Assembly (NCBI GenBank): GCA_038040445.1
Contig: JBBPIG010000010.1
Location: forward strand, 124,001 to 188,000
Direction: 5' to 3'
Length of the DNA: 64,000 bases
DNA from: Acidobacteriota bacterium
GTDB taxonomy: Bacteria > Acidobacteriota > Blastocatellia > UBA7656
Shown one piece after another: positions 10,436 to 62,056 of the stretch. The notes below the pieces were generated by a model. The model worked only from the letters and a program-made list of their open reading frames with translations, was not told the origin of the DNA and did not search any database. Position 1 is the stretch's first letter. Each line of letters begins with the position of its first letter. The translations under genes and the position numbers were made by a program.

Positions 10436-13372
10436 ATGCTACAAATGAAACGGCCGAGCGGAACGCTAGTATCGATTCTGGTTCTCGCTTTCGTGCTTCA
10501 ACTGCCACTGGTCGCGACGCCGGCGGGCCGGACACAGTTGGAGGCTGCGGTCCTATCGCATTTCGAGCCGCTTCCTAACTTTGATGCAAGGGACCTGCGT
10601 CCACCTATCAAGCCGACAACAAAGCTCGAAACCCGTAAGCATTCCCTCGCCGTCAAGGCCGCGATCGACGAGGTCGTTGTGACCTGGGATGACAAGCTGG
10701 ACTTGCCGCATAGTCTGCTTTCGCTCAAGGCGGCGCTCACCGCGAGGTCAACCGGCGACGCGGCCCTGATAGCCAGGCGATTCGTTCGCGACAACAGCTC
10801 ATTGTTTGCGATAAGCGAGGGCCAGCTCGAGTCCGCTCGCATCTCGGCGCGTGAGACTGATGGACGCGATGGATTCACAAGGCTCGTGCTCGAGCAGCAG
10901 TCAGGCGGCATTCGCGTGTTCGATTCCGAGATGCTGTTCATCATCGACCGCGAGGGCCGCGTGCGCTCCGAGTCGGGCAGCTTCATTCCTCAGATAGACC
11001 TGCTCGCGCCTGATTCGTCGCCCGCGCTCGCGCCCGAGCAAGCGCTCCAGCGCGCGGCACACTTTTGCGGAGCTGATATTACAGACGTCGTTGCAGCGGT
11101 GACGGACAATAGTCGCGGCCGTCTGCGGGTTCTCTTTTCGTCGGAGGCGGTTGATCCCCGCTCCGAAGCAAGCCTCGTCTACTATCCGGTCACTCGTGAC
11201 GAAGTCAGGCTTGCTTATCAGATCATGCTCTACGGCGTGCCCTCGAAACTTGATGCCTACCTGCTGCTTGTGGACGCACACTCGGGCGAACTGCTCCGAC
11301 GCGACTCGCTCACTTATGCGGCTGACGCACCGGCGGGCCGGGTGTTCACAAAAGAGAATCCCACCATCTCAACAGACCGCGAGATGGTTGCGTTCAAAGG
11401 GGACCCGGCCGCGTCGTCCGCTGGTTGGGTCACGGCTAACCGCACGGCAGGCAACAACGCTCAGATCTTTTTCAATCCGGCCCTGGACGGCGGCAACACG
11501 GTGAAGGCGAACCACGACGGCAATTTCGATTTCGACATCGACCTGACCCGCGGACGTTCGCCGCTGGACTCGTCCGCCGCTTCGGCAGCGAACCTGTTCT
11601 ACTGGGTCAACGTCGCTCACGACAGGTTCTACTCGCTGGGCTTCAACGAAACCTCGCGAAACTTTCAGTTGGACAACCTCAGCAAAGGGGGCCGCGACGG
11701 CGATGCGGTAAGAGCCGAAACGCTGCGCGGCGCCGGGCTCGATCCTGCTTCGACGAATCAACTGGTGCGCAACAACGCGTTCTTCCAGACCGGAATCGAC
11801 GGTACACCGCCGCTGCTGGCGATGCTGATGTGGACCGGCAGTATCAATGGGCAGAACGTCGAGCTGGACAGTTCCTACGATGCGGGGGTGATCATTCACG
11901 AATACACCCACGGAGTGTCGACGCGGCTTGCGGGGACGGACAACAGCACAGGCCTCAGATCGAATCAGGGCGGCGGAATGGGCGAAGGCTGGTCGGACTT
12001 CTTCGCAGTGTCTTTCTTGACCGGGGATCTGCCACAGGACGGCGCATACGCGGCCGGGAGCTACATAACTCAGCGAGCGCGAGGTGTCAGAAACTTCCCT
12101 TACAGCACGCGCTTCGATATCGACCCGCTCACGTTTGGCGATATTCGGTCTTACACCGAAGTTCACGCGCAGGGGACGGTATGGTGTTCGATGCTCTGGG
12201 ACATGCGACAAGCGTTTGTTGAACGCTACGGGTTTCAAACCGGAAAGGAAGCCGTCGAGCGGCTGGTCATCAGCGGCTTGAAAGCGACTCCGCTTGCGCC
12301 GACTTTTGTCGATGCGCGCGACGCGATACTGCTTGCGGACCGGATAACCAACAACGGCGCGAATCAGGATTTGATCTGGCGGGCGTTCGCGCGGCGAGGA
12401 CTGGGCAAGTCGGCGACGGCCGCGCTGGCAACTCCGGTTTCCGGGTTTCGGATTACGGCCACCGAAGGGTATGACGTGCCTGCGGAGTTCTCAGCGGGCT
12501 CACTTATCATCAACGACAAGCCATCAACTCCCGCGGTGATCGGCGAGTTGCTCCCGCTCGTTGTAGTTGATCGCGATCTAACAGCTTCTTCAATTGATGT
12601 GCTTGCGACGAACTTGCGGACCGGCGCGGCGGCAACGTTCACCCTGGCGTCAGGTTCGCCCGGCAGGTATGCCGGCACGCTGAGATGTTTGTTCCCGGGG
12701 CAGGACGGCGGACCGGTAGCGGCGCTCGCGGCCGAGCCCGGCGACGCGATCTCGGTCGCTTATTCGAACGCGCGAAACGAGGCCGGAAAAGCGGAGACAA
12801 TCGAAGTGCGAACGCTCGCCGGCCGCCGACTCCAGGTGTACGCAGCGGACTTTGAGCAGGGCGCCGCTGACTGGAGCCTGACGAGCTTCTGGCACTTGAC
12901 CGAGCGGCGAGCCGCCGGCGGTTCTCACTCTCTCTACTTTGCGAAGCAGAAAGGCTTTAATGAAGCCAAGTCGTTTACCCCGCTTGGGAGCAGCGGATCA
13001 GCATTCTCACCGGCGGCCGGCCTGCAGAGTCTGTCTGGCGCGCGACTCGAGTTCGACTACGCTTTCATCTCGTTTCTGCCAGGAGTCCCGACGAGCTCGG
13101 CGGGTGATTTGTTCACGCTCAATGCCCGCAACTCTCCGTTCATCGGGTCGAGCCCGCTGTCGGCGGAGGACCCTCGGCTCTTTGTGTTTTTTGATCTGCG
13201 CGGAGAAAGCAGTGCTGTCTTTCATCCGGTGAGCATCGACCTTCGATTCCTGGGAAGCGGCAGCGCTTATCTAGGCCTCAGCTTTAGCGCGTCGACGGCC
13301 GACATTGCGCGCAAGAAGCTTGAAGGCTTCTACATCGACAACATTCGCGTGACTGCTGTTTCGACAAAGTAA
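10436..13372 (+). CDS. Secreted M36-family (fungalysin-like) zinc metallopeptidase
   Basis: A 978-residue exported protease. The signal peptide is MKRPSGTLVSILVLAFVLQL (from residue 4). An FTP-type inhibitory propeptide spans about residues 40-260. The catalytic domain follows: zinc motif HEYTHGVSTRLAG near residue 488, then GGGMGEGWSDFFAVSF, which supplies the third zinc ligand. The C-terminal 250 residues are beta-rich (for example YAADFEQGAADWSLTSFWHL) and resemble a surface or substrate-binding module. M36 enzymes are usually broad-specificity secreted proteases. GAGGGAGC precedes the start. Length exceeds fungal fungalysins because of the C-terminal module, which is common in bacterial versions. 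Confidence 0.9.
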   Translation: MLQMKRPSGTLVSILVLAFVLQLPLVATPAGRTQLEAAVLSHFEPLPNFDARDLRPPIKPTTKLETRKHSLAVKAAIDEVVVTWDDKLDLPHSLLSLKAALTARSTGDAALIARRFVRDNSSLFAISEGQLESARISARETDGRDGFTRLVLEQQSGGIRVFDSEMLFIIDREGRVRSESGSFIPQIDLLAPDSSPALAPEQALQRAAHFCGADITDVVAAVTDNSRGRLRVLFSSEAVDPRSEASLVYYPVTRDEVRLAYQIMLYGVPSKLDAYLLLVDAHSGELLRRDSLTYAADAPAGRVFTKENPTISTDREMVAFKGDPAASSAGWVTANRTAGNNAQIFFNPALDGGNTVKANHDGNFDFDIDLTRGRSPLDSSAASAANLFYWVNVAHDRFYSLGFNETSRNFQLDNLSKGGRDGDAVRAETLRGAGLDPASTNQLVRNNAFFQTGIDGTPPLLAMLMWTGSINGQNVELDSSYDAGVIIHEYTHGVSTRLAGTDNSTGLRSNQGGGMGEGWSDFFAVSFLTGDLPQDGAYAAGSYITQRARGVRNFPYSTRFDIDPLTFGDIRSYTEVHAQGTVWCSMLWDMRQAFVERYGFQTGKEAVERLVISGLKATPLAPTFVDARDAILLADRITNNGANQDLIWRAFARRGLGKSATAALATPVSGFRITATEGYDVPAEFSAGSLIINDKPSTPAVIGELLPLVVVDRDLTASSIDVLATNLRTGAAATFTLASGSPGRYAGTLRCLFPGQDGGPVAALAAEPGDAISVAYSNARNEAGKAETIEVRTLAGRRLQVYAADFEQGAADWSLTSFWHLTERRAAGGSHSLYFAKQKGFNEAKSFTPLGSSGSAFSPAAGLQSLSGARLEFDYAFISFLPGVPTSSAGDLFTLNARNSPFIGSSPLSAEDPRLFVFFDLRGESSAVFHPVSIDLRFLGSGSAYLGLSFSASTADIARKKLEGFYIDNIRVTAVSTK

Positions 13373-13405
13373 GTTCCGGCTTAGAAGCCCGTGAGCGCAT
13401 ACCGC

Positions 13406-13486
13406 TGCGCATAGAGTTCAGGCTTTAGCCTGGCAGTACCTTCCTCCTTCGACGCACAACCAGGCTAAAGCCTGAACTCCATGCGC
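13406..13486. repeat. Palindromic element between convergent genes that supplies the RluA-family stop codon
   Basis: GAGTTCAGGCTTTAGCCTGG (13414-13433) is answered by its exact 20-base reverse complement at 13459-13478, flanked by GCGCAT/ATGCGC. Positions 13465-13486 are translated on the minus strand as the last residues (RMEFRL) and TAG stop of the pseudouridine synthase. A related phrase (GTTCAGAG and AAGCTTCAGCTTGC) occurs at 57391-57497. Confidence 0.8.
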
Positions 13487-14538
13487 TTAATCGTTGCCGC
13501 AATGTCTTCGGGCACAGGCGTTGTGAACTCCATCCATTCTCCGCTCGCAGGATGATGAAAGGCGAGCTTCCACGCGTGCAAACACAAGCGCATTGCGAAT
13601 TGCGGATTGAGAATTGCGGATTCTCGCTCGTCACCTTGGTTCTTCTGTCCCGACAATTCGCAATCCGCAATCCGCAATCCGCAATCGTCATGCATTTCAT
13701 CTCCGACGATGGGATGACCTATGTGAGCGCAATGTATCCGCAGTTGGTTGGTGCGGCCGGTTACGGGCTCTAACTCGAGAAGCGTCGTACGTCGCAGCCT
13801 ATCGAGCACCGTGAATCGCGTTTCCGCAGGCTTGCCGGTCTCGATTACTCGCCAGCGTGGCTGCTGATCCGGATCGCGTCCGATCGGCGCATTGATCGAG
13901 CCGGCGTCCGCTTCAACATCGCCGCGTACCAAAGCCACATATCGCTTTTCTACCAGCCGCTTCCGAAAATGACGCGACAGCACAGTGAGCGCGTGAGCCG
14001 TCTTGGCTATCACGATGAGCCCTGAGGTCGCGCGGTCCAGCCTGTGCACCATGCCGGGACGAATCAGCGAATGCCGCTCGCCGTCGGGAAAAGGCGGGGG
14101 TTCCGGGTTCAGTGTTCCGGGTTCAGCGTTCGGTTCCAACTCGGAACCAGGAACTCGGAACCCTGAACCGTAGTTCAGGTGATACGCCAGGGCATTGGCG
14201 AGAGTCCCGGTCTTTACACTCAGAGTCGGATGGACGAGCATGCCGGCCGCCTTGACGACTACGATCACGTGATCATCTTCGTGAATAACTTCGAGCGGGA
14301 TTGGCTCGGCTGACATCGCGGTCGGAGCGCCCTCATTGAACGCCATTTCAACAGAGTCACCTGTGAGAATGCGATAGCCCGCTCGCCCGACGGCTCCATT
14401 CACAAGACCAGCGCCGCCTTTAATCAGGTTCGCAATCCGCATGCGGCTGAGGCTTCCGAAGCGCGACGCTAAAAACTCGTCAAGCCTTTGGCCGGCGTCA
14501 CGTTGTTCGATCTGAAACTGAAAGGAATTGCTAGTCAT
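13465..14538 (-). CDS. RluA-family 23S rRNA pseudouridine synthase (RluD-like) carrying two in-frame palindromic inserts
   Basis: Converts uridines to pseudouridine in rRNA. An S4 RNA-binding domain occupies residues 10-65 (DAGQRLDEFLASRFGSLSRM). The catalytic motif is HRLDRATSGLIV with Asp168. Later motifs are EKRYVALVRG, LELEPVTGRTNQLRIH and HPIVGDEMH, then CLHAWKLAFHHP. Residues 124-147 (from FRVPGSELEP to LNPEP) and 284-316 (DDCGLRIADCELSG to NPQFAM) have no counterpart in ordinary RluD proteins. They correspond exactly to repeat elements at 14099-14170 and 13592-13687. Both lengths are divisible by three and contain no stop, and both fall outside the catalytic motifs. The start codon and final residues also lie in repeat elements. 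Without the inserts the protein would be about the usual 300 residues. Confidence 0.9.
   Translation of the reverse strand: MTSNSFQFQIEQRDAGQRLDEFLASRFGSLSRMRIANLIKGGAGLVNGAVGRAGYRILTGDSVEMAFNEGAPTAMSAEPIPLEVIHEDDHVIVVVKAAGMLVHPTLSVKTGTLANALAYHLNYGSGFRVPGSELEPNAEPGTLNPEPPPFPDGERHSLIRPGMVHRLDRATSGLIVIAKTAHALTVLSRHFRKRLVEKRYVALVRGDVEADAGSINAPIGRDPDQQPRWRVIETGKPAETRFTVLDRLRRTTLLELEPVTGRTNQLRIHCAHIGHPIVGDEMHDDCGLRIADCELSGQKNQGDERESAILNPQFAMRLCLHAWKLAFHHPASGEWMEFTTPVPEDIAATIKRMEFRL
13592..13687. repeat. 96-bp phrase palindrome inserted in frame in the RluA-family gene (insert 2)
   Basis: The left half carries ATTGCGAATTGCGGATTG and GAATTGCGGATT; the right half carries CAATTCGCAATCCGCAATCC and further CCGCAATC units, the reverse complement. 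It spans codons 284-316, between HPIVGDEMH and CLHAWKLAFHHP, where other RluA proteins have a short loop. Confidence 0.88.
14099..14170. repeat. 72-bp phrase palindrome inserted in frame in the RluA-family gene (insert 1)
   Basis: Plus-strand units of GTTCCGGGTTCAG occur two to three times, followed by GGTTCCAACTCGGAACC and by AACTCGGAACCCTGAACC, which are complementary to the first half. It spans codons 124-147, between NALAYHLNY and the HRLDRATSG motif. Similar 'GGTTCAGGGTTC' phrases fill the asd-lysC gap at 61866-62056. Confidence 0.88.
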
Positions 14539-14665
14539 TGGTCATTGGTCATTGGTCATTAGTCACGTAGTCAGTAGTCAGTAGTCCGTAGTCCGTAGTC
14601 CGTAGCTCTTCCGTGCGAGTTGATGGCGAGAGAGCTACGGACTACTGACTACGGACTACGGACTA
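14536..14665. repeat. Phrase palindrome filling the queG to RluA-family gap and overlapping both genes
   Basis: Tandem units GTCATTG (four copies), GTCAGTA (two) and GTCCGTA (three) are followed after a spacer by GCTACGGACTACTGACTACG and further GGACTA units, the reverse complement. The RluA-family ATG (14536-14538) lies in the first unit. The queG stop codon (TAG, 14663-14665) is the far end of the element. Confidence 0.85.
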
Positions 14666-15808
14666 ACAAAGGACCATTTCCGCTTCTTCACGGACCGAAG
14701 CATCGGGGTCGGATTTCAGCGCGCGTTCGGCGATCGACCTGGCCCTTCTTGCGTCGAGTTGCCAAAGAGCCCACAGAGAGTGGCTGCGAATGAGCGGCTC
14801 CCGGTCATTCTCAGCCCGCTCGATCAAAGAGGGCACGGCCGCAGTTGCGCCGACATTGGCGGCTACGACGGCGGCATTGCGAAGCAGGCCCCGACGCTTG
14901 GGACGCGTGAGAGGCGTGCCGCGGAATCGCGCGCGAAACTCATTGTCGCTTGCAATCGACAGCACCTCGACGAGGTCCAGCCGCGGACCGGCGCCCGCCT
15001 CTGGATGGAACTCGGGCCAGCGGGTGTCCGACGCGAAGCGATTGAATGGGCATACGTCCTGACAAACGTCGCAGCCGAATATCCAATCGCCAATCGCGGC
15101 TCGAAGCTCGGTCGGAATCGCGCCTTTGTTTTCAATGGTCAGATACGAGATGCACTTACGCGAGTCCAGTTGGTACGGCGCGGCAAAGGCGTCGGTCGGA
15201 CATGCGTCGAGGCAGCGGCGGCAAGTACCGCAACTAACTTTGATCTCGCGATTGTCGGCGGGCAGCTCGAGGTCGAGGAGAATCTCCGACAAAAAGAACC
15301 ACGAGCCGCTTCGCGGTTGTAGCAAATTCGTGTTTTTGCCGAAGAATCCCAGCCCTGCGCGCGCAGCGACTGCGCGCTCCAGAAGCGGCACCGCATCGAC
15401 GAAGCATCGCGCGTGAATCGGGCGGCCAGCAATTTGTTCGATCTTGTTCACCAGCGCTTGAAGCCGCGGCTTCACGACATCGTGGTAATCGAGTCCCCAC
15501 GCATAGCGCGCCACGCGCCCGTAGCGATGTTGATGTTCAAACACGGGCGCCGCTGAAAAGTAATCGACTGCGAGAGTTATCAGTGACCGGGCGTAAGGCG
15601 CCAGCGCGCCGGGCTGAGCGTGCAGCTCCGGCCTGCGCGTCATGTAGTCCATGCCCGCCGCGAAGCCTGACTCGCGCCATTCTTGAAAAGCAGAGTCGTC
15701 GCGCGTGAGTGGCTCGACCGAAGCGACACCGGCGACTTCGAATCCGATTTGTCGGGCCGCGATTTTGATTTGTTCTACTAGCTCGCTCACAAGAGGCAGG
15801 CTATCCAT
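14663..15808 (-). CDS. queG: Epoxyqueuosine reductase QueG with C-terminal HEAT-like repeats
   Basis: Catalyses the last step of queuosine synthesis, reducing epoxyqueuosine in tRNA with cobalamin and two [4Fe-4S] clusters. The N-terminal half contains ARYAWGLDYHDVVKPRL, AVPLLERAVAARAGLGFFGK and NTNLL, the conserved cobalamin-domain segments. The ferredoxin-like part has CGTCRRCLDACPTDAF and CDVCQDVCPFNRF. The last 90 residues are helical, HEAT-like pairs (RNAAVVAANVGATAAVPSLI) that bind the tRNA anticodon region in the family. At 381 residues the length is normal. The ATG at 15808 has no obvious ribosome-binding site. It may be co-transcribed with the pseudouridine synthase downstream, making a tRNA/rRNA modification pair. 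Confidence 0.93.
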   Translation of the reverse strand: MDSLPLVSELVEQIKIAARQIGFEVAGVASVEPLTRDDSAFQEWRESGFAAGMDYMTRRPELHAQPGALAPYARSLITLAVDYFSAAPVFEHQHRYGRVARYAWGLDYHDVVKPRLQALVNKIEQIAGRPIHARCFVDAVPLLERAVAARAGLGFFGKNTNLLQPRSGSWFFLSEILLDLELPADNREIKVSCGTCRRCLDACPTDAFAAPYQLDSRKCISYLTIENKGAIPTELRAAIGDWIFGCDVCQDVCPFNRFASDTRWPEFHPEAGAGPRLDLVEVLSIASDNEFRARFRGTPLTRPKRRGLLRNAAVVAANVGATAAVPSLIERAENDREPLIRSHSLWALWQLDARRARSIAERALKSDPDASVREEAEMVLC

Positions 15809-61865: not shown

Positions 61866-62056
61866 CGGTTCAGGGTTCAGGGTTCAGGGTTCGGGGTTCA
61901 GGGTTTCTGGTCTATGGTTTCTAGTTCAGTCTGGTGATCAAAAACCAGAACGGAGACGCCAGAAACCATAAACCAGAAACCCGGAACCCTGAACCCTGAA
62001 CCACGAACCCGGAACTCTGATCCACGAACCCTGAACCACGAACCCGGAACCTGCCT
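61866..62056. repeat. Phrase palindrome (GGTTCAGGG type) filling the asd-lysC gap
   Basis: Right after the asd TAA come GGTTCAGGGTTCAGGGTTC, GGGGTTCAGGGTTTCTGG and CTATGGTTTC. The second half has CCAGAAACCATAAACCAGAA, ACCCGGAACCCTGAACCCTG, then repeated AACCACGAACCCGGAAC. The element ends at the lysC ATG. Its phrases resemble insert 1 in the RluA-family gene. Confidence 0.88.

Follow-up and report, generated by a model that had tools for sequence, protein, structure and literature searches.

Putative inserted palindromes of 7-bp words recur in frame at the same two loop sites of rluD in Blastocatellia

Introduction

The gene at positions 13465–14538 of the window (the 64,000-nucleotide stretch of DNA analysed here, which is part of contig C10 of a 6.75-Mb Blastocatellia genome, G000) raises a simple question. 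It encodes a pseudouridine synthase of a conserved family, and its reading frame runs through two self-complementary stretches. Are these ordinary protein sequence, or are they elements that came from elsewhere, and if so, what placed them at these two points?

In-frame palindromes of bacterial proteins are usually viewed as a single family scattered over many genes, those of the Rickettsia palindromic element (RPE) family being 105–146 bp long. For heptanucleotide repeats, which make up the stretches described here, we know of no agreed explanation so far. RPE are palindromic repeats found in frame within conserved protein genes (Ogata 2000; reviewed in PMC2229807), and a guanylate kinase that bears one is translated and active (PMC2229807). 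GTAG/CGTC REPs also lie inside genes, as in-frame insertions encoding 20–30 aa, with some genes doubly inserted; their hosts include the pseudouridine synthase genes truB and truA, and they can supply a TAG stop (Di Nocera 2013, PMC3733652). REPINs are inverted doublets that form a hairpin, are dispersed within one genome, and have outer arms that are better conserved than the spacer between them (Bertels and Rainey 2011, PMC3116915). In Geobacter metallireducens, tandem hepta- and octanucleotide repeats are paired on opposite strands at variable distance and in consistent orientation, and another family there, GGGACCG x4, has both intergenic and intragenic copies (PMC2700814). Heptameric simple repeats, namely the STRRs of Calothrix, GGGNATC in Xanthomonas and Nostoc (PMC4692102) and TAACTGA (PMC4679880), have been described as direct arrays.

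Results

The gene and its flanking palindromes

The gene lies on the minus strand and is a single uninterrupted open frame of 357 aa through both stretches. Its product belongs to the RluA/RluD family (TIGR00005, 245 bits over residues 13–352; PF00849, 104 bits) and has an S4-like part at the N terminus and the RluA-family catalytic domain, with the motif HRLDRATSG at residues 165–173. The AlphaFold model of the protein was matched by Foldseek to RluD structures (PDB 1v9f and 2ist). It is thus an RluD-type 23S rRNA pseudouridine synthase, although the score against the NCBI RluD equivalog (199 bits) is below the cut-off of 351 bits, and for that reason its substrate site in the rRNA is only presumptive.

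Two palindromic elements bound the gene and two interrupt it. The upstream element, at 14532–14665, consists of CCAATGA heptads followed by a (GTAGTCC)n palindrome with 35-nt arms (94%; period 7 by TRF at 14532–14605). The ATG start codon of rluD sits in the final CCAATGA heptad of the run, beside the palindrome. At the other end, a REP-like palindrome at 13407–13486, which reads GAGTTCAGGCTTTAGCCTGG...CCAGGCTAAAGCCTGAACTC on the coding strand and has 27-nt arms that are 96% complementary, gives the gene its last codons and its TAG stop. The 3′ codons ATG-GAG-TTC-AGG-CTT-TAG all belong to this palindrome (GAGTTCAGGCTTTAGCC), and a related tag, GAGTTCA, is carried by REPs adjoining a RAYT gene on contig C7. 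The initial annotation of this DNA had placed one element over the start codon and one over the last codons, which is what is found.

Of the two internal palindromes, the stronger is site 2 (13592–13687; codons 284–316, DCGLRIADCELS...SAILNPQFAM), in which arms of GATTGCG heptads surround a variable spacer of about 25–40 bp. Its inverted repeat of 35 nt is 86% complementary, with z of about 14 against shuffles, and its 7-bp-period array has z 13. Site 1 (14099–14170; codons ~124–147, GFRVPGSELEPNAEPGTLNPEPP) has arms of GGTTCAG/GGTTCCG heptads, and is weaker yet well over chance (inverted repeat z 7.7, period-7 z 6.6). It was missed by a 9-mer seed search for inverted repeats and also falls under the seed of the 832-kb genome scan described below, so that it is additional to the 129 elements of that scan. 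Both palindromes are imperfect, with arms made of tandem 7-bp words, and a search of Rfam with positions 13000–15000 returned no family.

Two self-complementary elements inside the frame, of 72 and 96 bp, had been proposed from the window alone. The inverted repeats are indeed there, at 14099–14169 and 13592–13685, with the frame open, and the proposed lengths and codons are right to within one codon. The further point that both lengths are multiples of three holds only in the sense that the frame stays open without a stop, because the exact ends of both inserts are fuzzy.

Comparison with orthologues and with the predicted structure

The simplest explanation would be that the two segments are ordinary RluD sequence that is palindromic by accident, and an open frame without a stop is what this would give. 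We fetched 80 orthologues from 84,980 species genomes. In most of them both sites are empty, site 1 being a linker of 7–13 aa and site 2 one of about 9 aa, and E. coli RluD is without either segment. The initial annotation had held that residues of both segments conserved across phyla would mark them as ordinary protein, and no such conservation was seen among the homologues compared. Given their absence in homologues, palindrome z scores of 7.7 and 14, and a genome-wide family of the same words, we attach practically no weight to this explanation, and it is also contradicted by the scan of whole genes presented in the next section.

The AlphaFold model is confident nearly throughout. The pLDDT is below 50 only at residues 128–156 and 285–315, which are the two inserts, both of them low-confidence loops of the model. 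The comparison shows that both segments are lineage-specific inserts. Apart from lengthening a disordered loop, they probably change little in the enzyme.

Repeats can break assemblies, and contigs C28 (28–96) and C47 (60–92) of the window genome start inside GATTGCG arrays, suggesting that the elements do so here. It could be argued on these grounds that the inserts are an artefact of assembling a metagenome bin. However, a diverged genome of the same genus (G001) has both inserts at the same sites, and the insert-bearing frame is intact in independent assemblies. An artefact is therefore very improbable, and was rejected.

Two of the other rluD genes have a disturbed frame. In L091 an in-frame stop precedes site 1, which has a tail of AATCC words, and in L157 there is a frame shift at site 2; each could be a sequencing error or decay.

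Recurrence at the same two sites

A scan of 82 rluD genes from end to end was made for inverted repeats (score at least 14) and period-7 arrays (score at least 12). All of the strong ones map either to window residues 120–161 (14 genes) or to 284–317 (4 genes), and none was found elsewhere in rluD in the 82 genes. The codon-shuffled control gave one inverted repeat and no arrays. The words vary from genus to genus. At site 1 they include GGTTCAG, GATTGCG, a GGACGGGG-type word, GAGAAGAG, GATTTTG, AATCCGA and AATCAGC, as well as REP-type hairpins, and at site 2 they are GATTGCG, GGGGACA and GAGTCTG. Relatives had been expected either to lack the segments or to have different phrases in their place, and this is confirmed. 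Because the words are unrelated, they do not represent one insertion that has decayed. A tree built without the insert columns requires a minimum of 12 switches between presence and absence of an element at site 1 and of 3 at site 2, counts in which gains and losses are indistinguishable. The sequences show that, in several genera, unrelated elements arrived independently at these same two loop sites.

Close pairs of filled and empty sites exist (L089 with L149, and L104 with L113). A target-site duplication was sought in these and in L101/L128, and none was seen: the linkers are replaced rather than cleanly interrupted, which makes the junction unreadable. No insertion was caught in the act among these comparisons.

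Repeated use of two sites might also mean that the inserts are kept for a function, as sites for DNA- or RNA-binding proteins or as loops useful to RluD, with recurrence due to positive selection or to insertion targeted at these sites. Applied to 178 kb of ORFs next to rluD in the same loci, the same loose scan gave only chance-like 11-mer pairs, none of them a heptad array, which would fit with targeting of rluD. Paired heptads of Geobacter have been annotated as putative IHF/HU sites (PMC2700814), and earlier REP/RPE insertions were also in pseudouridine synthase genes (PMC3733652). A functional explanation is nevertheless quite improbable, given that the words are unrelated between genera, that most orthologues have none, and that the segments are predicted to be unstructured. 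Their position is explained by purifying selection against insertion elsewhere.

Dispersal of the words in each host genome

Each rluD checked uses a word that is dispersed in its own genome, and this is true for three words. GGGGACA, at site 2 of the G005 gene, has 36 matches in G005 and none in G000, G001, G002 or G004. GAGTCTG, at site 2 of the G004 gene, is matched 93 times in G004 and never in G000 or G001; G005 has as many as 255 matches, though its rluD does not use the word. GATTGCG has 40 matches in G000, 13 in G001, 37 in G002 and 73 in G004, and the rluD of all four carries it or a close variant, while there are no matches in G005, whose rluD is without it. A control with the reversed pattern was clean for GATTGCG and nearly clean for GAGTCTG; for GGGGACA there is no such control, as the reversed word is almost identical.

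In G000, GATTGCG occurs at about 25 unlinked dispersed sites. The polarity is fixed, with the arms pointing inward (W...W′) in 36 of the 36 listed close pairs (less than 300 bp apart, counted manually). In the ATTTTCC/AAATGGA family both polarities occur. No common spacer or flank was found among the GATTGCG elements, of which only the arms behave as a unit.

These observations bear on the possibility of a local origin, in which slippage expands a resident 7-bp word and replication fold-back copies the inverted arm, with no movement at all. Such an origin would account for arms that differ in copy number with 7- and 14-bp periods and for spacers that are unrelated, and the left arm of site 2 in the window does look freshly homogenised when compared with L080. 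It is hard to reconcile with a constant polarity, with some 25 unlinked sites in one genome, or with the finding that the rluD word is dispersed elsewhere in its own genome and absent from relatives that have a different word. We therefore regard it as unlikely.

Abundance in the genome and the rarity of elements in genes

The same type of repeat is common in the window genome. A sample of 832 kb has 489 cases of a 10-mer that recurs at lag 7, where a Markov shuffle has 1, and 1425 inverted pairs of 12-mers lying within 200 bp of each other, where the shuffle has 15. Period-7 arrays occur at 77 per Mb, compared with an average of 4 per Mb for periods of 5, 6 and 8–11. There are 129 palindromic elements, against none in the Markov shuffle. 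Only 4 of the 129 are in genes, 2 of those with heptads, despite about 84% of the DNA being coding.

Successive copies of a 7-bp word are read in the three frames by turns, which makes the openness of an array a property of the word and not of the frame. About 50% of the possible 7-mers give no stop in any frame of either strand, and the six fully regular rluD words all have this property, although the sample is small. The exceptions are a one-armed AATCAGC array and the mixed GGTTCAG/GGTTCCG site 1, which has a TGA out of frame.

The other certain in-gene heptad element of the 832-kb sample is in an SMC gene (G000:C3:257304–261800, L072/L073), which has an in-frame palindrome of CAGTGGT words at 257954–258108 (GSGQWSVASDQ...ATDHQPLTTV). 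The SMC protein also has a long low-complexity insert near residues 95–260.

Period-7 arrays were absent from the samples of G007, G017 and G020 (100 kb each) and of G033 (60 kb), whereas other Blastocatellia have 20–150 per Mb. These four genomes differ in both GC content and RAYT number.

Possible links to REP elements and RAYT genes

Seven Y1_Tnp matches were found in G000. The REPs beside two of its RAYT genes are tagged GTAGTCC and GAGTTCA, both of which are heptad-family words of the genome, and there are composite elements in G000 in which heptad arms lie outside a REP core. No GATTGCG elements were found beside the RAYT genes examined. Among 13 sampled genomes, the correlation of RAYT density with heptad density is not significant (rho 0.31, p 0.30) and is confounded by GC content. 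At one RAYT-like gene (G000:C2:30160–30715, L039) there are GTAGTCCCGCCTTCAGGCGG REPs on both sides, and the downstream REP has repeated GTAG tags and perfect 53-nt arms.

Palindromes also occur inside one another. We counted 28 nested and 13 side by side, several of the concentric ones being ordinary longer repeats. Concentric palindromes with different outer and inner words are seen at site 1 of L089, at C2:354551 and C3:249665 of G000, and at 61867–62051 of the window. This hints that elements may nest in the loops of earlier elements, which would explain the repeated arrival of new words at an rluD site that is already occupied.

Discussion

We conclude, with a probability of about 0.78, that both segments derive from short palindromic elements, mobile but non-autonomous, of which copies were inserted into rluD in frame. 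Each such element would have a variable spacer flanked by two arrays of a 7-bp word that converge on it, and most copies would be intergenic. Survivors in rluD would be confined to the two loops, as insertions elsewhere would damage the enzyme. An occupied loop would then be a safe harbour, where later elements nest or replace the old one, and arm length would change by slippage of 7 and 14 bp. The initial annotation had proposed that some process spreads palindromes and that a filter retains only those insertions that are tolerated. The lineage-specific inserts, the different words at the same sites, their dispersal in the host's own genome, the 4 of 129 elements in genes and the loop positions all support this, the spreading process itself being what we infer from them.

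The best candidate for the mover is a single-strand transposase of the REP type (HUH/RAYT), which would act on a doublet similar to a REPIN. This is a tentative proposal, for which we would offer somewhat less than even odds; otherwise there would be another mover, or copying by replication fold-back.

How far do these elements resemble known systems? A parallel had been drawn with RPE, and it stands insofar as the rluD palindromes are likewise inside the open frame of a conserved gene, putatively translated, and absent from most orthologues. It does not extend to their make-up: RPE are one sequence family in many genes, whereas here many unrelated families of 7-bp words, with tandem heptad arms, are found at the same two sites of one gene. 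We do not file the rluD inserts as RPE, since their arms consist of 7-bp words in tandem, with different words in different genera. The GTAG/CGTC REPs share with the window rluD the in-frame and double insertion, the pseudouridine synthase host and the supply of a TAG stop. However, the hosts named are truB and truA and not rluD, the only shared site reported is in recB of two Xanthomonas, and there are no heptad arms (PMC3733652).

Closer structural parallels than RPE are provided by REPINs and by the paired repeats of Geobacter. The GATTGCG elements resemble REPINs in being inverted doublets of fixed polarity with a variable spacer and many sites. REPIN arms, however, are single REPs tied to RAYT, and here just two heptad words show a link to RAYT, GATTGCG not being one of them. 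The GATTGCG and GGTTCAG arms in rluD are also without the GTAG-type tag and hairpin core of a canonical REP, which other elements of the genome do have. Because their arms have no REP hairpin core, the in-gene elements may be said to work like REPINs, but not to be REPINs. With Geobacter the window genome shares tandem heptads paired on opposite strands at variable distance, and no relation in sequence is claimed. The Geobacter repeats were read as putative regulator sites, with no comparative test of in-frame insertion or of recurrence at one site (PMC2700814). The heptameric simple repeats are similarly of period 7 and mostly intergenic, with some TAACTGA arrays inside ORFs, but they are direct repeats rather than convergent palindromes, with one or a few words per genome.

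Both in-frame palindromes, as RPE and REP, and paired 7-bp arrays, as in Geobacter, are known already. What is new is that unrelated elements, specific to their genomes, have converged on two loops of a single conserved gene, a pattern of which we found no report in the open-licence papers searched. More speculatively, and in a form that may well prove wrong, Blastocatellia might host a class of mobile 7-bp-word palindromes, with a mover still to be named and a vocabulary that each genome evolves for itself. Conserved protein loops, among them the two in RluD, would serve these palindromes as safe harbours time and again, and new peptide segments would thereby be written repeatedly into the translation machinery.

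On the reading that we prefer, in which mobile elements were inserted in frame, rluD across the class would record repeated independent arrivals of unrelated elements at two points. It offers a natural experiment on the points at which a protein can accommodate new peptide, in which insertions can be compared with the empty site in sister species. It also joins heptanucleotide repeats, REP-like palindromes and in-frame insertion, so that the mover of the 7-bp-word palindromes becomes a directly testable question. In this soil lineage of Acidobacteria, the class Blastocatellia, DNA that spreads like a parasite would keep adding stretches to a conserved rRNA-modifying protein.
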